From a virus, in IMG/VR virus record IMGVR_UViG_3300013233_000167, positions 1-64,000 of that record: a stretch of DNA of 64,000 nt; one strand, given 5' to 3'. Shown in pieces: positions 10,289 through 39,736 of the stretch (position 1 is its first letter; each line of letters begins with the position of its first letter). The notes below the pieces were generated by a model. The model did no database searches. It worked only from the letters and a program-made list of their open reading frames with translations, and was not told the origin of the DNA. The position numbers were made by a program, and so were the translations under genes.

Positions 10289-11662
10289 TCACGCAGTCTG
10301 CTTGATCCCTCGATGGTAGGCCGAACAAGCACCATCCAACGAGAGACGAGCATTGTAGGCTCGATGTGTATTAGTTACGAACCATGTGGCATCACCTACC
10401 TCCGACTTCCACACAGCGGGTGTCTCCTCACCGTTAGGACCATGATGCCAAACCGCCTTGCGATCCATAACTTCACTGCGCTCATCGTCCGACAGCCGCA
10501 CCTTACCTCGTTTGAGCACATTCATCGCTGGCACGCGGACCTTCTCGTCCACGAACCTCACCGGACCGAGGCCCGGGGTCGCGTCTAAGTAACGGTGCAG
10601 GGCGCGAGGGTATTCGAGCAAGGGCTCGACCTCCACTTCCGTGACGGTCGCGCGCACCGTGGGGTTGTGTCCCCACGTACGCAGCGCGATTAGCTTTCGA
10701 GACGCGCATCCCGTCTCGTCGATCAACGGCGCGTTGTTACGGCGCGTCCGTTCGATGAACGTCACGACCTTCCGACAACGCTCCCACGTTTCGTCCGTCC
10801 ACTCTCGGAGTGGAGTCGCCTTCATGCTAAGCACGTATCGCGCGGCCTTCTTGCCTTCGAGCAACGGACCGCGCTTGGAACGTCGCGTCGTGGCGATCGC
10901 TTCGCGCAGTGCGGACGACCGCAGATGTGCTCGCAACTCACCGGCTCGCATGTTCACAAGCCGTTGGAACTTCTCGTATAGCTGCGCACGGTCACGACTC
11001 AGATCCGCCTCGGATCCGCTGCGGTTCCGCTGCGGTAAGTGCGCGGGACGCCAGTGCTCTTCAAGATCCGGTGCCTCCCAGATGTCGAACGTCTCGAACA
11101 ACTCAAACGCATCGTCGCCTTCCAAAAAATCGAGCCACGCTTCGTCGATCGACTCCTGAGCGCCACCACCAGCATCCGCTCCCTGCGGGTCCTCAGCGCC
11201 CGTCTGCGATCCGGGTCTCTCGTCATCGGCGGGCTCTTCGGGCGGAGGCTCTTCGCCTCCCGGGGCAGCCGGAACCGTAGGCTGGTCAGGGTCGTCCACA
11301 ATACCGGGAGAACGTACCTCGCCGGTCGGCGTCACGATCAGGGTCTTGACCTTGAACTGACGCTTGGTCTTCGACATCGCGGTCGGCGATTCGTCACCCA
11401 CCGAGATGCGCATGTCGTAGTACGCCTGGAGGTCGTCGCGGTAGAAGGGCGGATCGTCCATGCGATCGTCCGTCTCCGGCTCCTGCGGGGGCGGTCCCTC
11501 ACCGTCCGGCGGACCGTCCTCTCCGTCTCCGGGCTTCGGCTTCTCCTCGTCGTCTGCCTTGGGCTTCTCGTCCTTGCTCTTGTCGTCCTTAGGCTTCGGC
11601 TTCTCCTCGCCGTCCTTTTCGGGCGGCCCCGTCTCCTTCTTCTTGGAGGCGGGGCTTACGCC
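10289..11662 (-). CDS. -1 frameshift extension / downstream head-associated protein
   Basis: This frame is open from the slippery site at 11662 to the stop at 10289 (457 codons), with no ATG, GTG or TTG until the ATG at 11461. The first 67 codons encode a Lys/Glu/Pro hinge (KPKPKDDKSKDEKPK). The globular part contains RTRRNNAPLIDETGCASRKL then IALRTWGHNP and ends AYNARLSLDGACSAYHRGIK, motifs I recall from uncharacterised phage structural proteins. I annotate it as the C-terminal part of a fusion with the gene at 11656..13749; separate initiation at 11461 (390 aa) is the alternative, with GGAG twelve bases upstream. Confidence 0.7.
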   Translation of the reverse strand, partial: GVSPASKKKETGPPEKDGEEKPKPKDDKSKDEKPKADDEEKPKPGDGEDGPPDGEGPPPQEPETDDRMDDPPFYRDDLQAYYDMRISVGDESPTAMSKTKRQFKVKTLIVTPTGEVRSPGIVDDPDQPTVPAAPGGEEPPPEEPADDERPGSQTGAEDPQGADAGGGAQESIDEAWLDFLEGDDAFELFETFDIWEAPDLEEHWRPAHLPQRNRSGSEADLSRDRAQLYEKFQRLVNMRAGELRAHLRSSALREAIATTRRSKRGPLLEGKKAARYVLSMKATPLREWTDETWERCRKVVTFIERTRRNNAPLIDETGCASRKLIALRTWGHNPTVRATVTEVEVEPLLEYPRALHRYLDATPGLGPVRFVDEKVRVPAMNVLKRGKVRLSDDERSEVMDRKAVWHHGPNGEETPAVWKSEVGDATWFVTNTHRAYNARLSLDGACSAYHRGIKQTA

Positions 11663-11668
11663 TTTTTT
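11626..11668 (-). promoter_or_regulatory. -1 programmed ribosomal frameshift signal
   Basis: On the minus strand: heptamer A AAA AAG (11668 to 11662) in the zero frame, the same heptamer as E. coli dnaX; a six-base spacer GCGTAA containing the zero-frame stop; then GCCCCG, CCTCC, loop AAGAAGAA, GGAGA, CGGGGC, a stem of six pairs, one mismatch and four pairs. A purine-rich AAGAAGG lies just upstream and could act as the internal Shine-Dalgarno stimulator. Confidence 0.75.
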
Positions 11669-13749
11669 CCGTCGCCTTCTTCGTCAGCGGCCTCGTACGC
11701 ACGACGCGACGCCGCGCCAGGGTGATCGGATTCCGTGGTGAAGTACCGCTTGAAAATCTGGAGCGCCATCTGCTCGCCGCTCAAGCGCGAAAGGACCAAG
11801 AAAAACATGAGCGAAGCGTTGCTCGGGACTTCTTGAAGGTAGCTGTGGAGCTTCGGGTACACGCGCGCGAGGTTACGCAGGAAGATCTGGAACGCTCTCT
11901 TCGGCTGCCGCGACACCACGTCTTGTGCGTCCGGGATCGCGGAGGCGTCGTCGGCGTTGAGGCCGAAGAACTTGGGCAGCGCCTCTCTCGGGATCGACGC
12001 GATGGCCTTCCGAGTACGCTTGAACACCGCGTCCTGCGGACCCTTGAAGTCGGGCATCTCCCTCTTGAACATCCGCAGCGCCTTGCCCGAGACCTTGAAC
12101 GCGCCCTTGCGTGCGGGCTTCTCCTCTCTGTCGAATCCGAGCGTTGGCGTCTCCTTCTGCCGCTCGATCAGCTCACGCGACAACGAGCCGAAGACTCCCA
12201 TGCGGAGCTGGTGCCAATGCTCGCTGCCCTGCTCCACGTCGGGGTACTGCTCGTCCACCATCTCGCCCGCGCGCTCCAACAGGGCGTCGCGTTCGTCTCG
12301 TTCATCAAGCGCCTCCAAACGCTCGCTGTTGTTCTCCTCGATGAGCGTATCGCGCTCGTCCGTGTGCTCGGTCTCTCCCTCAATGAGCGTCGGGCGCGCG
12401 CACGGGACTCCACACTCAGCCGCGTAGTCACGCAGGTACGACTCGACCATGAGGTCGCGTTCGGCGGGAAGCTCCTCGTACATCTCGCCGAGTGCCGCGA
12501 TCCCTTCCAGAACTTCATCGTACGGATGGGGCACCACCCATGCGGCATCGCGCACCGACACGACCGTCTGGCCGTCCTCGTGCACCACGCCCCACGCGCC
12601 GTAGTCCGAGCTGACCGCTTGGGCCTCTTCGTCCACGGCGTCTTCCACTCCTTCCGACAGACCTTCCTGACGCGCCTCCCACGAGTCACACGTCATCTCC
12701 GGTCCGACACCGTATGCGTACAGCGTGCAGTAGTAGTCATCGCCATGCTTGGCGCGGTAGTAGCGACACATCGCGCACGCACCGTGCGCAGTCTCACCAT
12801 CACCGACGATGCGATAGTTGCGCGGGCGCTGCGGAGCTTTGTCGTACTCGACGTACGCCTCATCGAGCGACTCGACCTCGGGCATCCACGTCCGTTCGTC
12901 TTCCGATACCCAGGTTATGCCGTTCGGGTCTTTGACGCACGCGCCATCGTCAACGCTCACCAACGTCTCGAAGATGTCGTCACCTGCGACCACGCAAAGC
13001 GCCGCGCGGCTGAGTCCGCCTTGTTCGCACACCGCGTCGTACTCATCGCGCGAGTCCGGTAGCAGTGACTCCATGCTCTGCTTCACGCCCGGCAACTTCA
13101 CATCACCGCTATTCTCTCCGCTCGGCTTGTCGGTCTGCAATTCCGGATCCTTCTGCTCCTTCGCGGATCCGGTCGCCGTGCAGTCGAGGATCGTGAACTC
13201 GAACGTCTCTTCTCCGTTGTGCTCGCCCGCTTCGATCAGCTTCTCGAACGTCGTGAACCCCGCGATGCCCGCGCGCATCTTGCGCACCTCTTCGGAGTTG
13301 ATCTTTCCCTCGAAGATAGCGAGGTACTTGTTGCCCTTCTCCAACACCGTCTCGACGAACCGCTCGAAGAGATGTCCGCTCGACTTGATGATCCAACCTT
13401 CCATCTGCGTCGCGGCGACGCCGTTCTTAGAACGTGAGTATTCGGGACGCTTATTGATGAAGTGCGTGGCGAACGCGCGCACATCCTTACGATCAACCTC
13501 TTTCGCGTCGTCCGGGTTTCCGCTTCCATCGGTCGCGTGTGTGTGTTGTGCAGCGAACTCCAAGATCGCGCCGACGTATCCCGGGTGGTGCTTGTTCTCG
13601 TCCTCGGGGATCGCGTCGGGATCGAGCTGGAAGAGCTTCTCTTCGAGACCCTCGCGTCCACGGAGCGCCTTGGTGGCCTTGCGGAATGACTCGCCAATCT
13701 TACGAGCGGCGAACAGGGTGCGTTGATACGTTTTCTTGAGCGAAGACAT
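11656..13749 (-). CDS. head maturation protease-like structural protein
   Basis: 697 residues in the zero frame; ATG at 13749 after GAGGAG. The N-terminal third has MEGWIIKSSGHLFERFVETV and a region up to FTILDCTATG that resembles XkdF-like phage serine protease or prohead protease domains, though the catalytic residues are not clear. Near residue 345 a Cys cluster CAMCRYYRA...CTLYAYGVGPEMTCDSW resembles a cofactor or metal motif seen in phage prohead proteins. The C-terminal 200 residues are helical and charged. It probably acts in head assembly. The stop overlaps a -1 frameshift signal. Confidence 0.6.
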   Translation of the reverse strand: MSSLKKTYQRTLFAARKIGESFRKATKALRGREGLEEKLFQLDPDAIPEDENKHHPGYVGAILEFAAQHTHATDGSGNPDDAKEVDRKDVRAFATHFINKRPEYSRSKNGVAATQMEGWIIKSSGHLFERFVETVLEKGNKYLAIFEGKINSEEVRKMRAGIAGFTTFEKLIEAGEHNGEETFEFTILDCTATGSAKEQKDPELQTDKPSGENSGDVKLPGVKQSMESLLPDSRDEYDAVCEQGGLSRAALCVVAGDDIFETLVSVDDGACVKDPNGITWVSEDERTWMPEVESLDEAYVEYDKAPQRPRNYRIVGDGETAHGACAMCRYYRAKHGDDYYCTLYAYGVGPEMTCDSWEARQEGLSEGVEDAVDEEAQAVSSDYGAWGVVHEDGQTVVSVRDAAWVVPHPYDEVLEGIAALGEMYEELPAERDLMVESYLRDYAAECGVPCARPTLIEGETEHTDERDTLIEENNSERLEALDERDERDALLERAGEMVDEQYPDVEQGSEHWHQLRMGVFGSLSRELIERQKETPTLGFDREEKPARKGAFKVSGKALRMFKREMPDFKGPQDAVFKRTRKAIASIPREALPKFFGLNADDASAIPDAQDVVSRQPKRAFQIFLRNLARVYPKLHSYLQEVPSNASLMFFLVLSRLSGEQMALQIFKRYFTTESDHPGAASRRAYEAADEEGDGKKA

Positions 13750-19155: not shown

Positions 19156-20040
19156 CTACCGCCCTTTTCGCTTCGGGGCGTTGTTTCGGCGCTTGATCGA
19201 CAGCAATTTTTTCAGGTGTTGCTCGCGCGTCGGACCCTCTGCGAGCACACGCAGCGCCTCGTCCGACCCCACCACCCTGACGAGCAGTCGATGGCGGCAA
19301 TTCGTCAGACAGACCGTGAGGCCGCTGCGAGGCGTCGTCGGCAGATTCTTCTTGTGGTATGGATTATTGTCCACGAGGTACTGACACGACTCACACACGC
19401 GCTTGTCCTTCTTGCCCACCCATCTGAACACCGAGGTTGCAGGCAAACCCATGACGCGCGCGGAATCGTAGAAGCTCTCCAGCGCGTCGATGTACATTCC
19501 GGTCCGACGGTCGAGCGGCATCTTATAGTCCTGCTCCGTCACCGCCTTGACGAACTTGTTGAGGAAGCGCATCTCGTGCTTGATCGCGCTCTTGAGCCAC
19601 TTCTCATCTCCAGCCGAGAACTCAATGGGGTCGTGCGGGTTGCGCCCCCGTATTCCCGCTGACCTCACTCCCGCCACGAATACATCACGCCATGCACGCT
19701 TCATCACGCGCGACGAGTCTTGCTGAAAGTCCGTGTTCCAGGTCTCGCCGCGATCGTGCGCCATCACGAGCGGAAGCATCTCGGCGAACGCACGCTTCTT
19801 GATGCGCTTGAGCGCCCGCTTCCCAACCGTCACGCCCTTCTTGCGCGCGTTGGCGAACTCCTGCGGGCGGAGAAAGGAGTCCATCGTCTTGTCCTTGTCG
19901 AAAAAAACGAGATCGACCTCCTTGGCCGCGCCGACGTACTTGCCCTCATCGAGCGGCCACCCCGCTTCCTCCGCAATCGTGAACGACGGTAGAAAGATGA
20001 ACAGGTCGTCGTACTGAACGAGATCTCGAACGTCGGTCAT
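19156..20040 (-). CDS. Mu gpF/SPP1 gp7-like head morphogenesis protein
   Basis: ATG at 20040. The 294-residue protein has a helical middle and a C-terminal region KDKRVCESCQYLVDNNPYHK...LTVCLTNCRHRLLVRVV. The CxxC followed by P-rich spacer and C-x3-C-R-H is the signature of phage Mu F-like minor head proteins, which bind the portal and help capsid assembly. The gene is directly downstream of portal and an IHF-like gene, the expected position. A basic C-terminal tail ends KRRNNAPKRKGR. Confidence 0.8.
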   Translation of the reverse strand: MTDVRDLVQYDDLFIFLPSFTIAEEAGWPLDEGKYVGAAKEVDLVFFDKDKTMDSFLRPQEFANARKKGVTVGKRALKRIKKRAFAEMLPLVMAHDRGETWNTDFQQDSSRVMKRAWRDVFVAGVRSAGIRGRNPHDPIEFSAGDEKWLKSAIKHEMRFLNKFVKAVTEQDYKMPLDRRTGMYIDALESFYDSARVMGLPATSVFRWVGKKDKRVCESCQYLVDNNPYHKKNLPTTPRSGLTVCLTNCRHRLLVRVVGSDEALRVLAEGPTREQHLKKLLSIKRRNNAPKRKGR

Positions 20041-37678: not shown

Positions 37679-39736
37679 TCAACTGTCGTCCTCATCCTCC
37701 AGGTCCGCCGACACGCCTTTCTTGTCGAGCAGGTACTTCTCCACACCCCCGGCCAACGACACCGCCTTGAGGGCAGCGTTCGCGCCGGAGCAGAAGCCCG
37801 GGTCACCCATGCGGTCGAACCAGTCGCCCCGCTTGAAGGCCCCGTCGGACCACGGGACGAGGATTCTCCCCGGTCCCTTGGCCTTCTTGATGATCCCGGC
37901 TTCGGTCAGCAGGTGTTGAGCGGTCAGCTCCACGCTCGGCCCGTGCGTGAAGTCCAGCACCCACTCCGTCCGCCGGTGAGGCGGCGCGAGTCGGCACTTG
38001 TCCGTGATGGTGGAGATCTTGTAGCCGGTGGGCGCGATGCCCTTCGCACGCTTCGCGGGCAGCCTGCCGATCACCCGATTCGCCACCCGCTGAGACGCCG
38101 CGAACTTCACGGCCCGGCCTCCAGTCGTGTCGGTCTGCGGGCCACCCCAGCTAGAGAAGCCTCCGATCTTCGAGCGGTTCTGGTTGATCCACATGACGTG
38201 GGCGCGGACCTTGGCGATCTCCCGAAACATCTTGCGGCAGCCCTTCGACATGATTCGCGCGTGGAGGCCAACGAACGAGTCTGTCATCTTCCCCTCCAAC
38301 TCGTCCTTCGGCACAGCCGCCGCGATCGAGTCCCACACGATAAGCGTCGGTGCGCCGGGGTCGCGGGTCTTGAGGTCGTTTAGGATCGCCCACGTCGCCT
38401 CCCAGCCCTCTTCCGCGTGCGCGGGCGCGAGGTAGATGAGACGCTCCGGGTCGATGCCGACGTTAGCCATCTTCGCAGCGTCGAGCGCGACCTCGTAGTC
38501 GAGAAGCACCGGGATACCGCCCGTCCGCTGACACTGACGAATCGCCATGTGCGCAAGCGCCGACTTGCCGCAGTTGTGGATCACAAGACCCTCAGCGATG
38601 TAGTTGCGGTACGGGTCCTCCATCTTGATGTCGTAGGTAGGCTTGATACCGACCGGAGTGATCGACACCACGCGGTCCTCCACGACCACGTACCTAAGAT
38701 TGCTGTCAGTCTCTAACGCATGTTCGCGGTTGTGCGCATCACCATCCACGACGACGAGGTTGTCTCTGTCGTCGTTCGACCAGTCCTCGTCGATATGGTG
38801 GACGTGCTGATCGGGGCGTAGGAACTTCATGTCGAAGAAGTCATCCGCGTCGAGACGGGCCTTGTACTCGTCGAGCGTCAGGCCGTTCATCTCGGCCTCG
38901 ATGATGGCGCGAGACATCGACGGCTGTGCAGCCCTCGCTCTCGCGTGGTTCGGATGAAATCTGACCGACAAATGCTTTCGGAAGTTTGATCTGGAAGCGG
39001 GGTCGTCGGACTGCCAATGCGTCTGGTTGTGCAAGTACAGCACGTCACCAACCGACACCTCCTCCAACGAACGGTAGCGACCCCCTACGTACATCTTGTG
39101 ATCGAGCGTCGCTGTTAGCTGCGCACCTGACTCGGTAACGACTTCCAAGCACTCGCGCTCTCCGGTCTTCACCACGTCAATGATCCGCGATTGCACGATG
39201 CGATGATCGTCGTTCATCGCAGGCGCGTGGAACGTCGCACCTTCGGGTGCAAAGCGATTCTTGCCCTTGCCCGGCACCGCGATTCGATGGAAGCGTTCGT
39301 ACAGACGCTCGATCGTTCCGCCCTTGCAGTTGATGAGTTTCCCGTCCGCTTGACGCACCTGATAGCCGATGAACGTCTCGGCCCAAGAGCATCCTTCGTC
39401 TCCGTACACCTCACTCGCACGCCCAACTGCCCAGCCGCCACCAAGCACGCGGTCAAGATCTGGGAAGCCTGACGGGATCCACTCCTTCACTTCGGAGAGC
39501 GAGTCTGCTTGTCCCAACACCGTCACCACGCTGTCGGTCTTCGTGCCGAGACGCTTCTTGATGGCCTTGACCATCGAGTCGGTATCGGACGGCTTCGCCT
39601 TGCGCGAGGTCTTCTTCTTCTTACTCGCGGCTGCGCCGGACTTTGCGGGCGACCTTCTTGCGTCCTTTTTTCTTGACGGTCTTTTTGCGGCCGTCTTTGC
39701 GGCGTGGGAAGTCTTCGCTTTGTCCTTGAGGCCCAT
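37679..39736 (-). CDS. recA: RecA/UvsX-like recombinase with intein
   Basis: 685 codons, ATG 39736 after AAGGTG. Residues 1-50 are a Lys-rich H1-like tail; then IPSGFPDLDRVLGGGWAVGR and the P-loop GDEG|CGKS, split by the intein, then PVLLDYEVALDAAKMANVGI, LIVWDSIAAAVPKDELEG and MWINQNRSKIGG, in RecA order. Spliced length about 412. It catalyses strand exchange in recombination-dependent replication. The 5-prime end overlaps the preceding gene by 116 bases. Confidence 0.9.
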   Translation of the reverse strand: MGLKDKAKTSHAAKTAAKRPSRKKDARRSPAKSGAAASKKKKTSRKAKPSDTDSMVKAIKKRLGTKTDSVVTVLGQADSLSEVKEWIPSGFPDLDRVLGGGWAVGRASEVYGDEGCSWAETFIGYQVRQADGKLINCKGGTIERLYERFHRIAVPGKGKNRFAPEGATFHAPAMNDDHRIVQSRIIDVVKTGERECLEVVTESGAQLTATLDHKMYVGGRYRSLEEVSVGDVLYLHNQTHWQSDDPASRSNFRKHLSVRFHPNHARARAAQPSMSRAIIEAEMNGLTLDEYKARLDADDFFDMKFLRPDQHVHHIDEDWSNDDRDNLVVVDGDAHNREHALETDSNLRYVVVEDRVVSITPVGIKPTYDIKMEDPYRNYIAEGLVIHNCGKSALAHMAIRQCQRTGGIPVLLDYEVALDAAKMANVGIDPERLIYLAPAHAEEGWEATWAILNDLKTRDPGAPTLIVWDSIAAAVPKDELEGKMTDSFVGLHARIMSKGCRKMFREIAKVRAHVMWINQNRSKIGGFSSWGGPQTDTTGGRAVKFAASQRVANRVIGRLPAKRAKGIAPTGYKISTITDKCRLAPPHRRTEWVLDFTHGPSVELTAQHLLTEAGIIKKAKGPGRILVPWSDGAFKRGDWFDRMGDPGFCSGANAALKAVSLAGGVEKYLLDKKGVSADLEDEDDS
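38573..39391 (-). other. intein in RecA (HNH type)
   Basis: 273 residues, inserted in Walker A between Gly and Cys-Gly-Lys-Ser. Block A is atypical (CSWAETFIGYQV rather than CxxxDT); block B is GAQLTATLDHKMYV; an HNH core HVHHIDEDWSNDDRDNL lies near residue 311 and the end is YDIKMEDPYRNYIAEGLVIH then N before Cys+1. Confidence 0.9.

Follow-up and report, generated by a model that had tools for sequence, protein, structure and literature searches.

Gene 1 of this uncultured, T4-related phage very probably ends in a programmed −1 ribosomal frameshift cassette, through which one gene would, again very probably, give two proteins in a fixed ratio. By computation from the sequence, the short product has 697 aa and the fusion with the downstream gene 2 has 1153 aa (696 + 457). 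Programmed −1 frameshifting is very likely because two independent uncultured relatives, L005 and L004, keep the junction, L004 with another heptamer. The heptamer is exchanged between relatives with its position, the stop and the stem retained, which indicates selection for the frameshift itself. Known phage frameshifts are found mostly in tail-assembly chaperones, coat or tail-tube genes. The present case would extend the list by a family of genes in uncultured phages of a lineage with a T4-type portal.

Organisation of the junction

The stretch of 64,000 nucleotides analysed here (the window) comes from an IMG/VR virus record of 74,460 bases. Its features relevant to the frameshift are collected in Table 1. 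On the minus strand, gene 1 ends in the zero frame with GAC GGA AAA AAG GCG TAA. The stem that follows the spacer consists of 6 + 4 pairs around one C·A mismatch and closes a loop of 8 nt. The 59 nt counted from the heptamer fold with −25.9 kcal/mol (z −3.9), better than 200 out of 200 shuffles. The anti-SD duplex of the SD-like element has a value that is ordinary within the window. The −1 frame stays open over 11683-10289; counted from 11662 it has 457 codons, and the first ATG, GTG or TTG among them is codon 68 (ATG 11461). GC content by codon position in the linker is 0.73/0.45/0.85 in the −1 frame, which resembles genes 1 and 2 and is coding-like. The gene 1 reading frame could be extended upstream to GTG 13962 (768 aa); the alignment of the relatives begins at about 13749.

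Table 1. Coordinates of the junction elements and of the two genes in the window.
Feature	Position	Strand	Basis
Gene 1, zero frame, 697 aa	11656..13749	−	ATG 13749, stop TAA 11658-11656; homologues align
Weak SD-like element AAGAAGG, 6 nt 5′ of the heptamer	11675..11681	−	anti-SD duplex −5.2
Slippery heptamer A AAA AAG, zero frame	11662..11668	−	sequence; same in L005, swapped in L004
Spacer GCGTAA, 6 nt, including the zero-frame stop	11656..11661	−	sequence
3′ stem-loop GCCCCGCCTCC-8 nt-GGAGACGGGGC	11626..11655	−	arms 11655-11645 / 11636-11626
Gene 2, 457-codon extension in the −1 frame, via the probable frameshift	10289..11662	−	open frame
Lys/Glu/Pro-rich linker, 67 startless codons	11462..11662	−	codon-position GC
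Portable module of ~50 aa (DDPPFYRDDLQAYYDM...KTKRQFK...VTPTG)	11303..11470	−	recurs in G007, G009
DUF3140 domain (PF11338)	10727..10972	−	29.1 bits, cut-off 25
Conserved C-terminal domain, ~88 aa (RKAVWHHG-NGEE-PAVWK...)	10292..10555	−	alignment of relatives

An earlier sequence-only reading had proposed a dnaX-type −1 frameshift fusing the two reading frames, and this proposal is now well supported by the two relatives, the heptamer swap and the loss of the alternative start. Its description of the heptamer, the six-base spacer with the stop and the 6+4 stem with one mismatch was exact. The sequence also agrees with it on the 457-codon −1 frame, whose startless first 67 codons encode a Lys/Glu/Pro linker, and all the numbers it quoted were correct, including the 697-residue protein and the possible 1153-residue fusion.

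Conservation of the junction and alternative explanations

We looked for the same heptamer at this junction in the relatives and checked for loss of the heptamer and stem there. L005, a 156-kb record, shares 56% identity with gene 1 over aligned columns and 64% with gene 2; the gene 3′ of its junction is 52% identical to that of the window. Its heptamer (2246-2252) is the same A AAA AAG followed by the same stop, and the junction reads GAGGAGG GGGACGG AAAAAAG CCGTAA GCCCCGACTCC...GGAGTCGGGGC, with CCGTAA as the spacer. The stem is a perfect 11 bp in which the C·A mismatch of the window is replaced by an A-U pair, and the fold (z −5.4) is better than all 200 shuffles. The SD-like GAGGAGG has a duplex of −12.3 and belongs to the top 0.5% of codon positions.

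L004 is more divergent (31% identity in gene 1, 51% in gene 2; 36% and 54% in the upstream and downstream neighbour genes). It carries a different but canonical heptamer, A AAC CCT (19196-19202), at the equivalent position and spacing: CCA AAC CCT CGG TAG GCCCTCC...GGAGGGCC, with the spacer CGGTAG. Its stem, GGCCCTCC/GGAGGGCC, is unrelated to that of the window and the fold is weaker (z −2.5, four of 200 shuffles being as good). The SD-like AAGGAG reaches a duplex of −8.7 (top 6.5% of codon positions). Aligning the stems of the window, L005 and L004 gives three sequences, below the need of a covariation test. Only these three genomes have the junction, which is not shared by the more distant G007 and G009.

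Gene 2 could instead be made separately from ATG 11461 as a 390 aa protein, by its own ribosome binding site or by re-initiation, with the heptamer and stem incidental. This ATG is kept in L005, where GGAG precedes it by about 12 nt (duplex −6.6), and a DUF3140 protein could stand alone. However, where the window reads DR[M]DDPPFYRDD at ATG 11461, L004 reads DR[I]DDPPFYRDD with ATC, and it has no ATG, GTG or TTG before 19325, already within the conserved gene 2 domain. In L004, therefore, no usual start codon could give rise to the conserved beginning of gene 2. Conservation also extends upstream of the ATG, as the directly preceding EPETDDR is identical in L005, and a predicted helix of the module crosses ATG 11461. 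Since separate expression also leaves the heptamers, rare codons and stems unexplained, we consider it quite improbable, while some additional internal initiation may occur in the window and L005.

Two further explanations concern the A6 run itself. Transcriptional slippage, yielding mRNAs with an A gained or lost that fuse the frames, is highly improbable. The A6 run is present in both the window and L005, but a run of six is short for efficient slippage of this type. Thermus dnaX does provide a precedent for transcriptional slippage (PMC5009743); against it, L004 has A3C3 with no homopolymer and an equal frame relation, and the 3′ stem and upstream SD-like element suit ribosomal slippage. 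The A3C3 of L004 likewise argues against a homopolymer error as the shared explanation. That an assembly or sequencing error in the homopolymer, or gene decay, divides one reading frame is extremely improbable: the contig is metagenomic and has a homopolymer at the break, but the same break is found in three contigs, two with identical A6 and one lacking a homopolymer, each has a stop and a stem after the break, and genes 1 and 2 are still conserved. Judged on sequence grounds, neither internal initiation nor sequencing error nor transcriptional slippage fits the window, L005 and L004 together.

Codon usage and genome scanning

Each heptamer is built from rare, disfavoured codons. Among Lys codons, 8.8% of those in the window set and 7.3% of those in G002 are AAA; GGA accounts for 5.8% of Gly codons in G002, and CCA for 3.7% of Pro codons in G004. 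In the gene 1 frames of L005 and L004 the terminal heptamer is the lone in-frame X XXY YYZ.

We scanned all six frames for ends of reading frames of at least 80 codons that have an in-frame X XXY YYZ no further than about 45 nt from the stop and a −1 extension of at least 60 codons. In each of the three genomes the junction was the sole match with an extension of more than 370 codons, a startless stretch of at least 39 codons and a dG60 of −25 kcal/mol or below. The ATC of L004, the lone heptamers, the disfavoured codons, this standing out in the scan and the A3C3 of L004 are the reasons for FRAMESHIFTING.

An Rfam scan of 11400-11900 found no curated frameshift element and two sub-threshold sRNA matches on the plus strand; this negative result tells whether the element belongs to an RNA family already described and does not speak to the mechanism.

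As a separate observation, an open frame of 354 codons in G002 closes with two in-frame heptamers that overlap, GGGAAAG and AAAGGGT (L033, 16293-16302, plus strand), and its −1 extension measures 76 codons.

Proposed mechanism and known frameshift systems

We infer the frameshifting event, its efficiency and its purpose. The majority of ribosomes would read GGA AAA AAG GCG TAA and terminate, producing the 697-aa protein. A fraction would pause at A AAA AAG before the GC-rich stem, and also on the upstream SD-like element, at least in the relatives. The two lysyl-tRNAs would then re-pair one base back, and translation would proceed through K-K-G-V-S-P-A-S-K, the linker and gene 2 to the 1153-aa protein.

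The dnaX site of E. coli is A_AAA_AAG, which ranks with the −1 sites most prone to shifting in that species (PMC5009743); the phage host and its tRNA-Lys set may differ. The dnaX likeness covers this heptamer, the stem 5-6 nt 3′ and, at least in the relatives, the SD-like element 5′. An in-frame X XXY YYZ within the overlap of the reading frames is present in the window, L005 and L004. A 3′ structure, expected about 5-9 nt downstream, follows a spacer of 5-6 nt in all three (z −3.9, −5.4 and −2.5). The SD-like element, expected about 10 nt upstream, is strong in L005, moderate in L004 and weak in the window. Unlike dnaX, the phage genes are unrelated to it, the SD-like element of the window is weak and L004 uses A AAC CCT. 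In E. coli dnaX the frameshift yields the short product, whereas in the window phage it would yield the long one. The reversed dnaX type reported for Chlorobium, in which gamma ends at once behind the shift site and the frameshift gives tau (PMC5009743), is alike in that the short product terminates at a zero-frame stop directly past the shift site.

Phage frameshifts with two products are known from gene 10 of T3/T7, the major head protein of A2 and the Listeria phages PSA, A118 and A500 (PMC5009743). As in these coat and tail systems, one phage gene would give a short protein and, in lesser amount, a form lengthened at the C terminus. Unlike in these cases, no profile identifies gene 1 as a coat or tail-tube protein, and the extension is 457 aa long with no Ig-like domain match. 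The sequence-only reading had likened the junction to lambda G/GT. Both have a −1 shift site close to where the upstream reading frame ends and the analogy of two-product expression stands, but size and gene context differ, and neither gene 1 nor gene 2 has a PHROG or Pfam match to tail assembly chaperones; the likeness goes no further than this analogy. Retroviral Gag/Gag-Pol similarly combines a particle protein with a minor frameshift fusion bearing extra domains; there is no homology, and the likeness is an analogy only.

The purpose is much less certain than the frameshift, and is most likely to supply, in minor amount, a virion or prohead-core protein with an extended C terminus. The gene 2 domains (the portable module, DUF3140 and the C-terminal domain) would then enter the particle in a proportion to the short form that is fixed and low. 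Automated annotation would start gene 2 at ATG 11461 and leave out the linker together with some of the module, and the module of L004 would be cut in half.

Identity and context of gene 1

Homologues of gene 1 are found in L005 and L004, and partial ones in G007 and G009. PHROGs, Pfam and PDB searches assign no function to it: there is no Pfam match and no informative PHROG match. Among 50,697 phage records neither gene 1 nor gene 2 has a homologue, and G003 and G008, relatives by portal, have no recognisable genes 1 and 2.

Gene 1 had been described as a protease-like protein of the head region. No match to PF03420 or to any other Pfam family, and no informative PHROG match, backs the first term. 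It is unsupported because the T4-type prohead protease of the relatives is a different gene: in G002 this protease (PF03420) and the capsid protein (PF07068) are separate genes about 50 kb away, and G007 also encodes a T4-type prohead protease (PF03420) and a gp23-type capsid apart from its gene 1 homologue. The second term is plausible, given the putative protease sites and the presence, 7-12 kb upstream and in the same orientation, of genes for the terminase and a T4-type portal; the role itself we infer. The window encodes the T4-type portal (PF07230) and a replication module, and no capsid or protease gene was seen in its record. An apparent internal TGA in the G002 portal turned out to be its ordinary stop.

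In the same window the terminase large subunit contains an intein (PF14890; 22597-25746, minus strand), and the UvsX-like recombinase (37679-39736) has HNH-like matches mid-protein.

Linker and domains of gene 2

Gene 2 was not found in genome_contigs. DUF3140 is also recognised in L005 (26.4 bits). AlphaFold models from three sequences were poor (pLDDT 51.5 and 49.2) and the gene 2 structure model has no match in PDB, so we make no claim about the fold except for the small portable module, which is predicted to fold by itself (pLDDT ~80). G005/L007 encodes the C-terminal domain but no other part of gene 2. An AAAAAAG at L007 7960 falls within a small, unrelated gene and is a chance occurrence; the C-terminal domain is all that L007 shares.

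The module also occurs in two other settings. In G007 it follows a Lys/Glu/Pro-rich stretch in a 493-aa protein (L020, 4852-6333, plus strand), where it lies at the C-terminal side. The N-terminal part of this protein resembles an ADP-ribosyltransferase by eye, and Pfam gives no match for it; possibly the protein is a packaged, ejected Alt-like enzyme. In G009 the module lies within a 1328-aa AAA-ATPase protein encoded by one uninterrupted reading frame, and is preceded by a stretch weakly similar to the gene 1 middle domain (one comparison, E 0.003), an arrangement that speaks for the frameshift reading. This protein is a possible virion ATPase.

A possible prohead-core role

The T4-type prohead protease has the specificity (L/I)-x-E. 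A LIE site is mentioned for gp21 (PMC9026906). The gene 1 homologue of G007 contains 16 [ILV]DE sites against 2.1 expected. In the window the excess is modest (4 vs 1.0 in gene 1, 3 vs 0.6 in gene 2) and a control, the window DNA polymerase, has 4 vs 1.2, similar to gene 1; in L005 the sites are not enriched. The sites in the G007 homologue and the presence of a prohead protease elsewhere in G002 and G007 are what suggests a prohead-core or ejected role. We propose tentatively that gene 1 is a prohead core or ejected protein and that frameshifting determines what proportion is made in a form carrying cargo. It is possible, if rather doubtful, that in a Gag/Gag-Pol-like manner a gene 1 core is processed by the prohead protease and that frameshifting provides a set minor share of it with a head-targeting module that can be detached, together with DUF3140 and other cargo domains, which would be packaged and ejected into the host. 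If so, relatives would reach the same end without a frameshift, by in-frame fusion (G009) or with the module on other proteins (G007).

Several loci in the relatives are of note in themselves. In G007 a 2081-aa reading frame (L023, 2586-8831, minus strand), a gene 1 homologue in its N-terminal part, has its 16 [ILV]DE sites between small modules and looks like a prohead-core polyprotein that would be cut by a T4-type protease. The 1328-aa module and AAA ATPase protein of G009 (L046, 3103-7089, plus strand) has several LDE/IDE sites. In G002 one 559-aa reading frame (L034, 12543-14222, plus strand), directly upstream of the gp23-type capsid gene, apparently combines a T4-type prohead protease region with a scaffold-like tail containing LDE/IDE sites.
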